Below, in pieces: positions 24,093-30,500 of a DNA stretch of 35,086 bases; position 1 is the stretch's first letter, and every line of letters starts with the position of its first letter. Position numbers and translations under genes: made by a program. Origin of the DNA: Campylobacterales bacterium (GTDB lineage: Bacteria; Campylobacterota; Campylobacteria; Campylobacterales; QNZT01); NCBI GenBank assembly GCA_027066435.1, contig JAMONX010000091.1:1-35086 (forward strand), given 5' to 3'. The notes beneath the pieces are model-generated. The model searched no databases, was not told the origin of the DNA, and worked only from the letters and a program-made list of their open reading frames with translations.

Positions 24093-24800
24093 ATGAAAAA
24101 AGAAGAAACTTCAATAGCTCTTTTAATAGATTGTGACAATATTAGTCACAACTCTATAGAGGGAATTATCAACGAATTATCCAAATATGGTGTTATAAAC
24201 ATCAAAAATGCTTATGGAAACTGGAAAAGCCCAAAACTAAAAGGTTGGGAAGAGAAGCTTTTAGAGTTTGCAATACAACCTATACAACAGTTTGACTACA
24301 CAAAAGGTAAAAATGCAACTGACATCGCTATGATAATAGATGCTATGGATATACTCTATTCACAAAACATGGACGCATTTGCACTTGCAACTAGTGATAG
24401 TGATTTTACTCCTATTGTTATGAGGCTTTTAAGAAATGGCTTAAAAGTATATGGTTTTGGCGAGGAAAAAACACCAGATCCTTTTATCAATGCCTGTTCA
24501 CAGTTTATAAAAACCGAGAGCTTAGTGCAGGATGTTAAGCAGCCTAAATTTGATAAAAAAGCACTCAGAAAAGATACAAAACTAGTAAGTTGGCTTAGAA
24601 ATGCGACCCTTCGCACGATGAATGAAGATGGTTGGTCAAATTTATCTAAGATAGGAGCTTACATCTCAAATAACTCTTCATTTTCTCCTGTAAACTATGG
24701 TTATCAGAAATTAGGAGATATCATCCGTGAAATTGATTTATTTGATATTGAGATGCGACTAAATAATAAACAGATGTATATTAAGGATAAGAGAGGGTGA
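24093..24800 (+). CDS. NYN-domain putative ribonuclease with OST-HTH/LOTUS domain
   Basis: The 235-residue protein has an N-terminal NYN (LabA/DUF88, PIN-like) domain: first acidic motif ALLIDCDNIS (near residues 9-18), FDYTKGKNATDIAMIIDAMD in the middle with its Asp, and ATSDSDFTPIVMRLL near 98-112. These acidic residues form the metal site of NYN ribonucleases. The C-terminal 70 residues (from LVSWLRNATLRT to the end) resemble an OST-HTH/LOTUS RNA-binding domain. NYN-LOTUS proteins are widespread in bacteria with RNA-related but mostly undefined roles. Its 3' end abuts the 3' end of the convergent tracrRNA gene; a link to CRISPR is not shown. Confidence 0.85.
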   Translation: MKKEETSIALLIDCDNISHNSIEGIINELSKYGVINIKNAYGNWKSPKLKGWEEKLLEFAIQPIQQFDYTKGKNATDIAMIIDAMDILYSQNMDAFALATSDSDFTPIVMRLLRNGLKVYGFGEEKTPDPFINACSQFIKTESLVQDVKQPKFDKKALRKDTKLVSWLRNATLRTMNEDGWSNLSKIGAYISNNSSFSPVNYGYQKLGDIIREIDLFDIEMRLNNKQMYIKDKRG

Positions 24801-24811
24801 GATAAAGTTTT

Positions 24812-24921
24812 TTCTTGTGTGCCATCGACACGGATGATTTTAATAATCAGAGCCTTACGCAAGGAAACTTTAAAAAACCTCACTTATTATAACACTTTCA
24901 AATTCCACTTCGATATGTTAC
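24812..24921 (-). ncRNA. tracrRNA of the type II-C CRISPR system
   Basis: Bases 24886-24924 are an anti-repeat. In tracrRNA sense, CATATCGAAGTGG (24917-24905) pairs perfectly over 13 bases with the repeat, and GTGTTATAAT (24895-24886) pairs over 10 with two G-U pairs. A bulged loop separates them. Next come a small stem-loop CCTT-GCGT-AAGG (24864-24853) followed by GGCTCTG, like the nexus region of known II-C tracrRNAs, then stem-loops at 24849-24835 (TGATT/AATCA) and 24831-24819 (GTGTC/GGCAC). A promoter sits just upstream on the same strand. The 3' end is uncertain because no U-run follows. The RNA is divergent from cas9. Confidence 0.85.
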
Positions 24922-24924
24922 AAT
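24916..24924 (+). promoter_or_regulatory. Candidate cas9 promoter within the anti-repeat
   Basis: TGTTACAAT is an extended -10 element on the plus strand. It occupies the same place in the anti-repeat as TGCTATAAT in the CRISPR repeats. A start near 24931 would give cas9 a leader of about 39 bases with AAAGG seven bases before the ATG. It overlaps the start region of the tracrRNA. Confidence 0.5.
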
Positions 24925-24927
24925 GCA

Positions 24928-24956
24928 ATTATATCTTATTTTTAAGAAAAAATCAA
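24928..24956 (-). promoter_or_regulatory. tracrRNA promoter
   Basis: On the minus strand TTGATT (24956-24951) and a perfect TATAAT (24933-24928) are 17 bases apart, a strong sigma-70 promoter. The start would be near 24921, at the first bases of the anti-repeat. It lies in the leader of cas9, in the opposite direction. Confidence 0.8.
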
Positions 24957-24969
24957 TAAAGGCTTTGTC

Positions 24970-27852
24970 ATGACGGAAAGAATTTTAGGTTTAGATATAG
25001 GTATTGCATCCGTTGGCTGGGCAGTAGTTAATCATGATAGTAAAAATGAAGAGAATAATAAAATTATTAAAAGTGGTGTAAAAATTTTTACACAAGCTGA
25101 AAATCCAAAAAATGGTAAATCCCTTGCCCTTCCTCGAAGATTGGCAAGAGGTACAAGGCGAACAATAAAAAGAAAAGCTCAGCGTATGAGAAATATTAAA
25201 CTTCTTTTTAGAAGCTATTTAGAGTTACCTTATAGTGAACTATTTGGAGATGAGGGAACAATTTATCATCAGAAAGGACGTGAAGAAGTTTGGAAACTTC
25301 GTGATAGGGCACTTAAGCGAAAGTTGTTAAATGATGAATTTGCAAGAGTTTTAACTCATATTGCAAAAAGAAGAGGGTATAAATCAAATAGAAAATCTGA
25401 AGAGAAAAAAGATAGTGAGGGTAAAAAGGTTTTAAGTGCAATTTCTAAAAATAAAGAACTTTTAGGAGAGTATTTGACAATTGGGCAAGCTATTTTTCAA
25501 ACAACTAAAACTGGCGAAAAAAGACGAAACGAGGATGGAAATTTTAAATTTTCAGTTTCAAGAGAGATGTTGTTTGATGAGATAAGAGTTATTTTTGAAA
25601 AACAAAGGCTTTATGGTAGTGAAATGGCGACAAAAAAGTTTGAAGAAGCATTTGTTGAGGTAGCCTCCTCACAGAGAGATTTTGCATCTGTTGATTATAT
25701 GGTTGGCAAATGTACTTTTGAGAAAAAAGAAAAAAGAGCTCCAAAGCAAAGTTTTTCAGCAGAAGAGTTTGTTTCGATTACTGAAATTATTAACAATAGA
25801 TTGGTACTTGAAGATGGTAAAGAGATATTTTTCAGCAAAGAGCAAATAGAAGTGCTTTTAGATCTTTATAAACAAAATAAAATTATCACTTACAATAAAA
25901 TACGACAAACCCTTAAAATAGAAAGTTCTACACTTTTTAAGAGAGTAAAATATTATAATAAAAACGGGGAAGTTTTATCAGTAAAAGATGCAGAAAAAGT
26001 AAAAATAAAAAATGGCTTTGAAAAGGGTTACCATTCTTTAAAAAAAGTTTTTGAGACTTCACTTTCTAAGATGCATTGGAAAATTTTTTCTAAAGATACA
26101 AATATGTTAAATAAAATTGCAGAGATTTTTTCACATCATAAGAGTGATGAAAAAATAGAGAAGTATCTTAAAAATCTTTTGGAAAAAAATACCTATTTAT
26201 CGGACGATGAAAAAATTACTATTATAGACGCATTGATAGAAAATATCTCTTTTGATAAATTTATACATTTGAGTATTAAGGCAGTGGAAAAGATTAATCC
26301 TGAAATGAAAAAAGGATTAACTTATGATAAGGCTTGTTTGAATGTTGGATATGAAAATATTGAAGGAATTAAGGAAAAATATTTACGCCCTTTAAACAAA
26401 GATGAAAACAATGAGCTAACTAATCCCGTAGTAAAACGAGCTATTTCACAAACAAGAAAAGTTATAAATGCACTTATATCCAGATATGGACAATTTGATA
26501 AGGTGCATATAGAGCTTACAAGAGAGATTAAAAAAAGCCACAGTGATAGAAAAAAGGTAGAGAAAGGACAAAAAGAGTATCAAGAGCAAAAAGAGAAAGT
26601 GGTTAAAAAATTTATTGAAGAGTTTGGAAGAGAGCCAAGAGGAAAAGAACTTTTGATATTTCGTTTAATGCAAGAGCAAGATGGGTATTGTTTTTATCAT
26701 GATAAGGCTATTGATAGAAAAAGGCTTTTAGATGTAGGCTATGTAGAGATAGATCATATCTTGCCATTTAGTCGTAGTTTGGATGATAGTATGAGTAATA
26801 AAATATTGTGTTTTGTGAAAGAAAATCAAAATAAAAAGAATCAAACACCCTATGAGTATTTTGCGAGTACGGATAAAAATTGGCATCGTTTTGAAGAGCT
26901 TGTAAAAGGGGCTGTGAGATTCAGTTATGGAAAAAAGAAAAAACTCTTAAAGAAAAATTTTGATGAAAATTCTGAAAATGAATTTAGAGAAAGAAATAAA
27001 AATGACACCTCATATATGTCAAAATTTCTCAAAAATTTCATAGAAAACAATCTAGAATTAACAGCTAAAAGTTCACAAAAAGTTTTTACAAGAAATGGCT
27101 CGTTAACCGCACTTTTAAGACATAATTGGGGAGTAGCACAAAAAAATAGAGATAATCATTACCATCATGCACAAGATGCAATAGTTTTAGCTTTTGCATC
27201 TCAGTCGCAGGTTCAAAAGCTTTCTACTGTATCAGGAAAAAATGAAGGATTTATTTATGAGAAAAAAGAAGAAAAGTCTAAAAAAGTAAGATTTGAACCA
27301 CCGTTTAGGAATTTTCGTGAGGAAATGGATAAGTCAATAGAGGAGATATTTGTCTCTTATACTCCTAGAAAAAAAGTAACAGGAGCGGCTCACAAGGAAA
27401 CTATACATAGTAAAGATGATAAAAAAGGAGTGTTTCCAGTAAATTATGGGATGGCAGAAAATGGCGAGGTTAAGAGGATAGATGTCTTTAAAAAAGATGG
27501 AAAGTTTCACTTTATCTATCTTTACCCAGCAGACTTTGAAAAAAAAGAGTTGCCTGATGAAACTATCAAAAAAAAGAAAATTGATGGTAGTTATCAATTT
27601 GTATTTTCAATATTTAAGGACGAATTGTTACATTTGAAAAATAAAAATGGTGAATATTTTGGATACTTTAAATTTGCACTAAGTGATGGTCGATTTATGA
27701 TATACAGCCATTATGCTTCATCATGTGATAAAAAAGATTGTCGTGTTAGTACAGGTTCATTAATAGATTTAAAAAAATATCATGTAACTCCTTTAGGTGA
27801 TTATCATGAAATAAAACAAGAAAAAAGATTAGGCACAAAAAGGAGTAAGTGA
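24970..27852 (+). CDS. cas9: Cas9, compact type II-C RNA-guided endonuclease
   Basis: Cas9 cuts double-stranded DNA matching the crRNA next to a PAM. The 960-residue protein has RuvC-I (ILGLDIGIASVGWAV, Asp9), the Arg-rich bridge helix (RLARGTRRTIKRKAQRMRN), RuvC-II (VHIELTREI, Glu515), the HNH core (VEIDHILPFSRS, Asp595-His596, and the Asn-rich NKKNQTPYEYF) and RuvC-III (HHAQDAIVLAFAS, His732-Asp736). All catalytic residues are present. The size is close to C. jejuni Cas9 (984). It overlaps cas1, and no csn2 or cas4 gene is near, which defines subtype II-C. The PAM cannot be read from the sequence. Confidence 0.97.
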   Translation: MTERILGLDIGIASVGWAVVNHDSKNEENNKIIKSGVKIFTQAENPKNGKSLALPRRLARGTRRTIKRKAQRMRNIKLLFRSYLELPYSELFGDEGTIYHQKGREEVWKLRDRALKRKLLNDEFARVLTHIAKRRGYKSNRKSEEKKDSEGKKVLSAISKNKELLGEYLTIGQAIFQTTKTGEKRRNEDGNFKFSVSREMLFDEIRVIFEKQRLYGSEMATKKFEEAFVEVASSQRDFASVDYMVGKCTFEKKEKRAPKQSFSAEEFVSITEIINNRLVLEDGKEIFFSKEQIEVLLDLYKQNKIITYNKIRQTLKIESSTLFKRVKYYNKNGEVLSVKDAEKVKIKNGFEKGYHSLKKVFETSLSKMHWKIFSKDTNMLNKIAEIFSHHKSDEKIEKYLKNLLEKNTYLSDDEKITIIDALIENISFDKFIHLSIKAVEKINPEMKKGLTYDKACLNVGYENIEGIKEKYLRPLNKDENNELTNPVVKRAISQTRKVINALISRYGQFDKVHIELTREIKKSHSDRKKVEKGQKEYQEQKEKVVKKFIEEFGREPRGKELLIFRLMQEQDGYCFYHDKAIDRKRLLDVGYVEIDHILPFSRSLDDSMSNKILCFVKENQNKKNQTPYEYFASTDKNWHRFEELVKGAVRFSYGKKKKLLKKNFDENSENEFRERNKNDTSYMSKFLKNFIENNLELTAKSSQKVFTRNGSLTALLRHNWGVAQKNRDNHYHHAQDAIVLAFASQSQVQKLSTVSGKNEGFIYEKKEEKSKKVRFEPPFRNFREEMDKSIEEIFVSYTPRKKVTGAAHKETIHSKDDKKGVFPVNYGMAENGEVKRIDVFKKDGKFHFIYLYPADFEKKELPDETIKKKKIDGSYQFVFSIFKDELLHLKNKNGEYFGYFKFALSDGRFMIYSHYASSCDKKDCRVSTGSLIDLKKYHVTPLGDYHEIKQEKRLGTKRSK

Positions 27853-28763
27853 TGGGATGGAGAGTAATTTATATCTCTAACCCTGCTTATCTCTCATTGA
27901 AAAATACAAATTTTTTGATTGACCAAAAAGAGTTGAATGAAAAAGTAAGTATTGACTTAGAAGATATTTCAGTGATAGTGATAGAGTCACGACAAGCTAC
28001 GATTACAACTTCTTTATTATCTGCAATTGCTAAAGAAAAAATAGCTCTTTTTGTATGTGATGAGTATCATCATCCAAACGGATTATTTTTGCCTTTTTCT
28101 CAACATAGTAGATTTTCAAAAATTGCACATATACAAAAAGATATTTCAAAGCCTTTGAAAAATAAACTTTGGAAAAAGATTATCCAAATAAAAGTGTTAA
28201 ATCAAGCAAAGGCATTAAAAGTATGCCATCAAGATGGTTATAAAAAATTAAAAATACTAAGTCAAAAAGTGCAATCAAATGATAAAACATACATAGAAAG
28301 TTATGCAGCAAGAGAGTATTTTTTCTATATGTTTGAAGATATAAATCGTCGAGATGATATGGACGGGCGAAATGGAGCATTAAATTATGGGTATGCAATC
28401 ATAAGAGGAGCGATTTCTAGAACCTTAAGCGCATATGGGTTTATACCTGCATTTGGGATAAATCATAGCAATGAATTAAACTCTTTTAACCTAAGTGACG
28501 ATTTAATAGAAACCTTTAGAGTTTTTGTTGATGTTGAGGTTATAAAAATCTATGAAGATTGTGCAGTTGATGAAATTTTTTTAACAAAAGAGCAAAAAGC
28601 ACAGCTTATCAATCTTTTAAATATTTATGTAGATATAGATGGTGAAAAGCTAAGTGTTTTAAATGCCATAGAAAAGATGGTGCAAACACTGCAAAAATCG
28701 TATATACAAGATGATTATAATTTCTTAAAATTGCCAACATTTGTGAAAGGATATAAAATATGA
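27852..28763 (+). CDS. cas1: Cas1 integrase, type II
   Basis: Cas1 inserts new spacers together with Cas2. The 303-residue protein has the conserved region RNGALNYGYAIIRGAIS, the metal-binding His in FGINHSNELNSFNLSDD and the acidic residues just after it (LIETFRVFVD). The ATG at 27852 overlaps the cas9 stop (TGATG) with AGGAGT five bases upstream; a GTG one codon earlier is possible. It ends inside the first codon of cas2. The length and N-terminus (WRVIYISNPAYLSL) are typical of type II Cas1. Confidence 0.97.
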   Translation: MGWRVIYISNPAYLSLKNTNFLIDQKELNEKVSIDLEDISVIVIESRQATITTSLLSAIAKEKIALFVCDEYHHPNGLFLPFSQHSRFSKIAHIQKDISKPLKNKLWKKIIQIKVLNQAKALKVCHQDGYKKLKILSQKVQSNDKTYIESYAAREYFFYMFEDINRRDDMDGRNGALNYGYAIIRGAISRTLSAYGFIPAFGINHSNELNSFNLSDDLIETFRVFVDVEVIKIYEDCAVDEIFLTKEQKAQLINLLNIYVDIDGEKLSVLNAIEKMVQTLQKSYIQDDYNFLKLPTFVKGYKI

Positions 28764-29086
28764 AAGAGGCAATATTTATGAGATTGTTTGTTATGTTTGA
28801 CTTGCCTACTGACACAAAAAGAGGTAGACAATATGCTTCAAAGTTTAGAAGCCATCTTCTTAGAAATGGTTTTAATATGATGCAATATTCTATTTACATC
28901 CGTGTTTGTAAAGGACAAGATGAAACAGATAAATATATAAACCGTATTAAAAAAGCATTACCACCAAAAGGAAATGTGAGAATTTTACAAATTACAGATA
29001 AACAATATAATCGCATGGAAATTTTGGTTGGTGAAAAAAAAATAGAAGAAAAAAAGTTACATATAGAGCAATTAGTTCTTTTTTAA
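28760..29086 (+). CDS. cas2: Cas2 adaptation protein
   Basis: Cas2 forms the dimeric core of the spacer-integration complex. The 108-residue protein has the ferredoxin-like beta strand LFVMFDLPTDT with the conserved Asp, then RSHLLRNGFNMMQYSIYIRVC and VRILQITDKQY. It overlaps cas1 by ATGA. A second ATG at 28778 would start nearer the usual family beginning (MRLFVMFDLP) and may be the true start. It is the last cas gene; the array follows after 124 bases. Confidence 0.95.
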   Translation: MKEAIFMRLFVMFDLPTDTKRGRQYASKFRSHLLRNGFNMMQYSIYIRVCKGQDETDKYINRIKKALPPKGNVRILQITDKQYNRMEILVGEKKIEEKKLHIEQLVLF

Positions 29087-29210: not shown

Positions 29211-30500
29211 ATTATAGCATATCGAAGTGGAAAAGGGTGCTATAACTCACAGGTGACGGCTCAATTTTTAAAGCTATATTATAGCATATCGAAGTGGAAA
29301 AGGGTGCTATAACACTAGAGCATACTTGATAAGAAGACTATTCATTATAGCATATCGAAGTGGAAAAGGGTGCTATAACGTATCTTTTACAGGAGATAAG
29401 GGATCCGAAATTATAGCATATCGAAGTGGAAAAGGGTGCTATAACAGGAAAACTTTACATATATGAGTGATGAAAATTATAGCATATCGAAGTGGAAAAG
29501 GGTGCTATAACATTGAATTACTATTAATGCTCAATCTTATAATTATAGCATATCGAAGTGGAAAAGGGTGCTATAACATTGTTTGCGTAAGTGATTCTTT
29601 ACGATGAATTATAGCATATCGAAGTGGAAAAGGGTGCTATAACCTATTGACATTTGTTTAAAAATGTGCGACAATTATAGCATATCGAAGTGGAAAAGGG
29701 TGCTATAACATGATGGGAACACCTAAGCGAGTAGGTACTATTATAGCATATCGAAGTGGAAAAGGGTGCTATAACCTAGTTTTTCTATTCTTGTCGGTAG
29801 AGGAGATTATAGCATATCGAAGTGGAAAAGGGTGCTATAACGGGAGATATGCAATCAGTATCTACGAAAAGATTATAGCATATCGAAGTGGAAAAGGGTG
29901 CTATAACTGCAATGTCCTTATTGAATACTTTTTTATCATTATAGCATATCGAAGTGGAAAAGGGTGCTATAACATGGCACGAATGTAGTTGAAGCAGGTG
30001 GCGATTATAGCATATCGAAGTGGAAAAGGGTGCTATAACAATAATCCACCGCCGTTTCATCGTCAAGATATTATAGCATATCGAAGTGGAAAAGGGTGCT
30101 ATAACAGAAGCTTAGCAGATTGGCAAAAAACACAAATTATAGCATATCGAAGTGGAAAAGGGTGCTATAACGCGTCCGACCAAGACCAAACCACCCTTAA
30201 GATTATAGCATATCGAAGTGGAAAAGGGTGCTATAACTTGATGAGTGTTTCAGTAAAAACAAATATGATTATAGCATATCGAAGTGGAAAAGGGTGCTAT
30301 AACATAAGTCAATTACTATTGCAGGAGCGAAGCATTATAGCATATCGAAGTGGAAAAGGGTGCTATAACAAATCTTCTTCCTCTACTGCTTTTATTAGAT
30401 TATAGCATATCGAAGTGGAAAAGGGTGCTATAACAATTGTGTCAGCTTGGATTTTAAAACTTGAATTATAGCATATCGAAGTGGAAAAGGGTGCTATAAC
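29211..30500 (-). CRISPR. CRISPR array: 20 identical 36-bp repeats, 19 spacers
   Basis: Repeats start at 29211, 29278, 29344, 29410, 29476, 29542, 29608, 29674, 29740, 29806, 29872, 29938, 30004, 30070, 30136, 30202, 30268, 30334, 30399 and 30465. All appear identical. Spacers are 30 bases except the one nearest cas2 (31) and the one at 30370-30398 (29). In crRNA sense (minus strand) the repeat begins GTTATAGCACCC and ends GATATGCTATAAT, like C. jejuni repeats that begin GTTTTAG. The final TGCTATAAT is a perfect extended -10 box, so each repeat can start transcription within the next spacer. Anti-repeat orientation and the downstream terminator confirm this direction. No two spacers look alike. 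Confidence 0.98.

Follow-up and report, generated by a model that had tools for sequence, protein, structure and literature searches.

A putative compact bidirectional promoter for cas9 and tracrRNA, half supplied by the anti-repeat, in a type II-C CRISPR locus of Campylobacterales

We analysed a 35,086-nt contig of a Campylobacterales bacterium (JAMONX010000091.1, assembly GCA_027066435.1; hereafter, the window) that encodes a type II-C system of clustered regularly interspaced short palindromic repeats (CRISPR), and focused on the spacer upstream of cas9, where the trans-activating CRISPR RNA (tracrRNA) is encoded on the opposite strand. In this spacer, cas9 and tracrRNA probably share one compact sigma-70 promoter that works in both directions and has the "10-bp" geometry, with half of it supplied by the tracrRNA anti-repeat. 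In one orientation, the polymerase would use the extended -10 element TGTTACAAT within the anti-repeat and start cas9 at about position 24931, and in the opposite orientation it would use the TATAAT at 24933-24928 and start tracrRNA at about 24921. The anti-repeat element appears to be the only plausible near promoter for cas9 in the window, and its role as such is likely.

The extended -10 TGTTACAAT (24916-24924, + strand) was the top + strand site of the spacer, with a score of 8.2 across 24801-24955 and a runner-up of 4.2, and only 1% of the dinucleotide shuffles of this 155-nt sequence attained that score (P = 0.01). It is preceded at a 16-bp spacing by a weak -35 (TTCAAA, 24897-24902), and the predicted cas9 start at 24931 (A), 7 bp past the -10, would give a 39-nt leader. 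On the - strand, the tracrRNA -10 TATAAT (24933-24928) has a weak -35 (TTGATT, 24956-24951) and a predicted start at 24921 (G), also placed at 7 bp. This -10 was above chance with the cas9 -10 held fixed and the rest of the spacer shuffled (P = 0.01), and each of the two was better than chance given the other (P = 0.01 each). The initial annotation had placed both elements correctly; the four bases that it counted between them are 3 bp (GCA) between the hexamers, a counting difference. Its claim that each predicted start lies in or next to the other's -10 was borne out, with the cas9 start inside the tracrRNA -10, the tracrRNA start inside the cas9 -10, and the two starts 10 bp apart. Bacterial bidirectional promoters are defined by divergent starts 7-25 bp apart (PMC10268837) and have three common start spacings of 10, 18 and 23 bp (PMC12825309); the window has -10 elements on opposite strands, divergent predicted starts, and a spacing inside this range. 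Sequence, geometry, homology and the exclusivity described below are observed features, and we infer that both starts are used. If both promoters work, only one polymerase at a time is expected on the site, on steric grounds.

The tracrRNA (24800-24921, - strand, with an approximate 3' end) was delineated by alignment of its anti-repeat, nexus and second hairpin. The anti-repeat, nexus stem and second hairpin were alignable across 17 loci, and 8 of the 17 consensus pairs stayed paired through changes on both sides; this covariation supports the tracrRNA identity independently of the promoter arguments. An Rfam search matched the repeat family and no tracrRNA family. The anti-repeat itself (24886-24924, - strand) was identified by wobble-aware alignment to the array repeat, and its + strand reads as a degenerate repeat in the CRISPR RNA (crRNA) sense. 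At its other end, within the tracrRNA gene, lies a second perfect extended -10, TGTTATAAT (24894-24886, - strand), which the initial annotation had overlooked; it scores higher than the assigned tracrRNA -10 and goes back to the opposite end of the repeat, which is semi-palindromic. Transcription starting from it would yield a tracrRNA without the anti-repeat. The TATAAT part of this element is conserved across the whole aligned clade, most simply as a result of pairing with the 5' end of the repeat, and the presence of the motif is not proof of its use.

The cas9-facing motif probably originates from the repeat, since II-C repeats of this type terminate in an extended -10 that the anti-repeat mirrors. 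All 20 repeats of the array (29211-30500, - strand) are identical to GTTATAGCACCCTTTTCCACTTCGATATGCTATAAT and, in the crRNA sense, terminate in TGCTATAAT, an extended -10 at the repeat end that is a trait known from Campylobacter jejuni. Compared with TGCTATAAT, TGTTACAAT has two differences, one in the unconstrained N of the extended -10 and one in hexamer position 3, and the element is still intact because both fall at change-tolerant positions.

The occurrence of this motif was profiled in approximately 80 related Cas9 loci from searches of the order and the phylum and in 80 named loci from GTDB genomes, some of which are the same genomes. A single-sequence Cas9 query of the genome contigs gave no match, and the 80 named loci were obtained with an alignment query; a scan of viral contigs for Cas9 returned distant Cas9s only. 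For each locus the repeat and anti-repeat were found and then sorted by place and direction. In a clade that comprises Sulfurovum, Sulfurospirillum, Sulfurimonas and Arcobacter-like genomes, tracrRNA is encoded immediately before cas9 in the divergent orientation, an arrangement general in this Campylobacterota clade. The comparison of this region among relatives, named beforehand as a check, showed the cas9-facing anti-repeat -10 to be intact in only 7 of 35 loci and broken in 28. The intact loci are the window, L071, L074, L131 and L069, plus L038 and L041 on a separate Cas9 branch. Two genomes of the set were unusual in other respects: one has two identical-scoring cas9 copies, inverted and approximately 20 kb apart (L070 and L106; G106:C1:716195-719203 and 692465-695473), and in another (L083, G365) cas9 was matched as two separate pieces, the first of which contains stop codons, so that the gene looks broken while the array remains.

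A second strong -10 before cas9 was found in none of the 7 intact loci and in 22 of the 28 broken ones (Fisher p 2.6e-4), with a similar result at other thresholds. Where the motif was lost, the replacement was usually a new extended -10 (such as TGATATAAT) located between the anti-repeat and cas9, and in most relatives the anti-repeat -10 has decayed and the new cas9 -10 is approximately 9-20 bp closer to cas9. All informative independent pairs drawn from the Cas9 tree agree in direction, and in none of them do both traits change alike. Since another strong -10 is missing from all 7 intact loci and present in 22 of the 28 others, the anti-repeat is probably the cas9 promoter in these 7 loci, and the exclusivity provides moderate support for such a role in the window. 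The genes upstream of cas9 vary among relatives, with the nearest one on the opposite strand in many, and cas9 therefore needs its own promoter.

The predicted spacing of the two starts was 8-10 bp in six of the seven intact loci (10 bp in the window, L071, L074 and L069, 9 bp in L041 and 8 bp in L038). In five of these six the tracrRNA -10 scored better than shuffled sequence (P 0.01-0.04), the exception being L069 (P 0.14), and, L131 apart, tracrRNA -10 scores above chance were confined to this group. Spacings of 18 and 23 bp in other relatives were considered as conserved bidirectional promoters and rejected, with 8 and 10 cases seen versus 7.6 and 7.3 expected (n = 30) when the cas9 -10 was held fixed and the remainder shuffled; such spacings arise by chance because TATAAT and TGnTA are self-symmetric.

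Several points weigh against, or qualify, a shared promoter in the window. The -10 scoring matrix is our own approximation and was not trained on the host organism, and the cas9 and tracrRNA starts are both predicted from sequence. The -35 elements of the two promoters are weak. On the supporting side, Campylobacter sigma-70 promoters depend on an extended -10 and have no clear -35 (PMC3656092). The overlap of the two promoters is a nearly forced geometry, since the repeat ends in a -10, the anti-repeat mirrors the repeat, and tracrRNA starts at the edge of the anti-repeat, which puts the tracrRNA -10 immediately past the cas9 -10. When corrected for kinship, the exclusivity comes down to approximately 4 independent contrasts, too few for significance (p 0.25). 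The seventh intact locus, L131, contains multiple overlapping -10 elements and falls outside the 8-10 bp pattern. Finally, in Firmicutes, where tracrRNA is upstream of and co-oriented with cas9, the anti-repeat -10 faces away from cas9, and 11 of 13 loci have nonetheless kept it intact. Pairing to a repeat that bears a promoter is thus sufficient to retain the motif, and motif retention alone, which we rejected as proof of function after this control, is poor evidence for a cas9 promoter. The proposal of the initial annotation that the anti-repeat is the cas9 promoter is supported by the lack of another good site and by the exclusivity, and its interpretation as a whole is partly supported. 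In the Firmicutes loci (L150, L154, L158, L159, L166, L167, L170 and others) the intact extended -10 is directed towards the upstream gene, and it could produce an antisense or upstream transcript.

The same control favours the best-surviving alternative, which is possible and clearly less probable than the shared promoter: the extended -10 may be a relic kept by repeat pairing, with cas9 transcription that begins further upstream and passes, for instance, through the gene encoding an NYN protein on the same strand 169 bp before cas9, or that begins at a weak unrecognised site. However, if tracrRNA starts at 24921, the element's three terminal bases (AAT, including the critical -7 T) would be untranscribed, and pairing would give them no protection. 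Downstream-located tracrRNAs have an intact tail in just 4 of 40 distinct anti-repeats, the spacer lacks another good cas9 site, and the NYN gene is not conserved at this position. Among other architectures, the anti-repeats of Neisseria and Pasteurellaceae loci face cas9 from approximately 105-160 nt away with a broken -10. In seven loci (L057, L059, L064, L066, L067, L101 and L105) the anti-repeat lies approximately 4.6-4.75 kb downstream of the cas9 start and copies the extended -10 of the repeat except for a T to C change of the critical last T (e.g., TGTTATAAC), as though the mirrored promoter had been inactivated.

A second alternative, which we consider unlikely, is that of an antagonistic switch, in which a polymerase bound in one orientation would repress the opposite direction and set the Cas9:tracrRNA ratio. 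The two promoter footprints must overlap, and in E. coli the divergent RNA is repressed when one direction is strongly activated (PMC12825309). Strong occupancy in the tracrRNA direction is conceivable from the abundance of tracrRNA in C. jejuni, where it is the most abundant small RNA in one strain (PMC3656092), although this is extrapolated from another architecture. On the other hand, the basal activity of five E. coli bidirectional promoters was too low for competition, which appeared only upon strong activation of one direction (PMC12825309), the cas9 -10 has been relocated in most relatives, and no activator site was found here or tested for; measurable antagonism between cas9 and tracrRNA is unlikely at modest promoter strength. 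Very improbable is a post-transcriptional feedback in which a longer, readthrough cas9 leader pairs with tracrRNA and leads to RNase III cleavage or Cas9 binding: the + strand of the anti-repeat is repeat-like and noncanonical crRNAs derived from cellular RNAs are known (PMC8224270), but with a cas9 start at 24931 the two RNAs share no overlap, and there was no indication of readthrough.

For the shared promoter that we favour, a repeat-derived ancestry is plausible. On the Cas9 tree, L069, the window and L131 split off one after another close to the base of one clade, and the intact state therefore seems to be ancestral in the clade of the window, with later loss. This fits the inherited, repeat-derived promoter proposed in the initial annotation, which had invoked an ancestral inverted repeat copy as its source, and is a fit, not proof. 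More tentatively, an inverted repeat copy beside cas9 may have supplied the tracrRNA and the cas9 promoter at once, such that a minimal II-C system could rely largely on promoters derived from its repeats, with Cas9 and tracrRNA as products of alternative polymerase orientations on one site. If true, the repeat sequence would serve three functions in one locus, as source of the promoters for crRNAs, of the anti-repeat in tracrRNA and of the promoter for cas9, which would be a simple route for minimal type II-C systems to become self-contained, and a dosage coupling of Cas9 and tracrRNA would be testable by a few point mutations. Natural variants exist in the relatives that kept the element and those that replaced it. 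No earlier report of a cas9/tracrRNA bidirectional promoter was found in a literature search that had most subscription papers outside its reach.

The cas genes of the locus are limited to cas9, cas1 and cas2, which together with tracrRNA and the array place it in type II-C. cas9 (24970-27852, + strand) encodes 960 aa (TIGR01865, 651 bits) and has a putative Shine-Dalgarno sequence, AAAGG, at 24958-24962 (+ strand), where relatives have AAAGGAG. It is followed on the same strand by cas1 (27849-28763; TIGR03639, type II) and cas2 (28760-29086; TIGR01573). The upstream neighbour of tracrRNA (24093-24800, + strand) encodes the protein with NYN and OST-HTH/LOTUS domains (Pfam PF01936 and PF12872); it was considered as a member of the system and rejected, as L044 is the only relative that has it in the vicinity of cas9, approximately 5.7 kb downstream.

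The proposed arrangement resembles the bacterial bidirectional promoters described by Warman, Grainger and colleagues (PMC12825309, PMC10268837) in its predicted divergent starts 10 bp apart, its abutting -10 elements and its one short shared segment that would hold a single polymerase at once. It differs from them in that one -10 sits in a functional anti-repeat and the pair is cas9 and tracrRNA. The type II-C repeats of C. jejuni are mapped crRNA promoters of the extended -10 kind (PMC3656092), and the same repeat-promoter organisation is cited for N. meningitidis as a personal communication (PMC3656092). The anti-repeat copy in the window derives from the same repeat sequence; whereas the C. 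jejuni repeat promoters make crRNAs, the mirrored copy would drive cas9, and the loci of C. jejuni type that were examined encode tracrRNA at another place and have mostly lost the anti-repeat tail. II-C loci with a divergent upstream tracrRNA (Haemophilus parainfluenzae, PMC6199352; Pasteurellaceae/Neisseria, L151-L186) share with the window an inverted repeat-like segment before cas9, but at the greater distance given above and with a broken -10 (TGCAACAAT, TGCTATTAC or TGCCATTAC). The tracr-L autoregulation of type II-A (PMC11417352) likewise ties the tracrRNA locus to the control of cas expression, although it works via the Cas9-guide complex at Pcas, unlike the promoter overlap proposed for the window.
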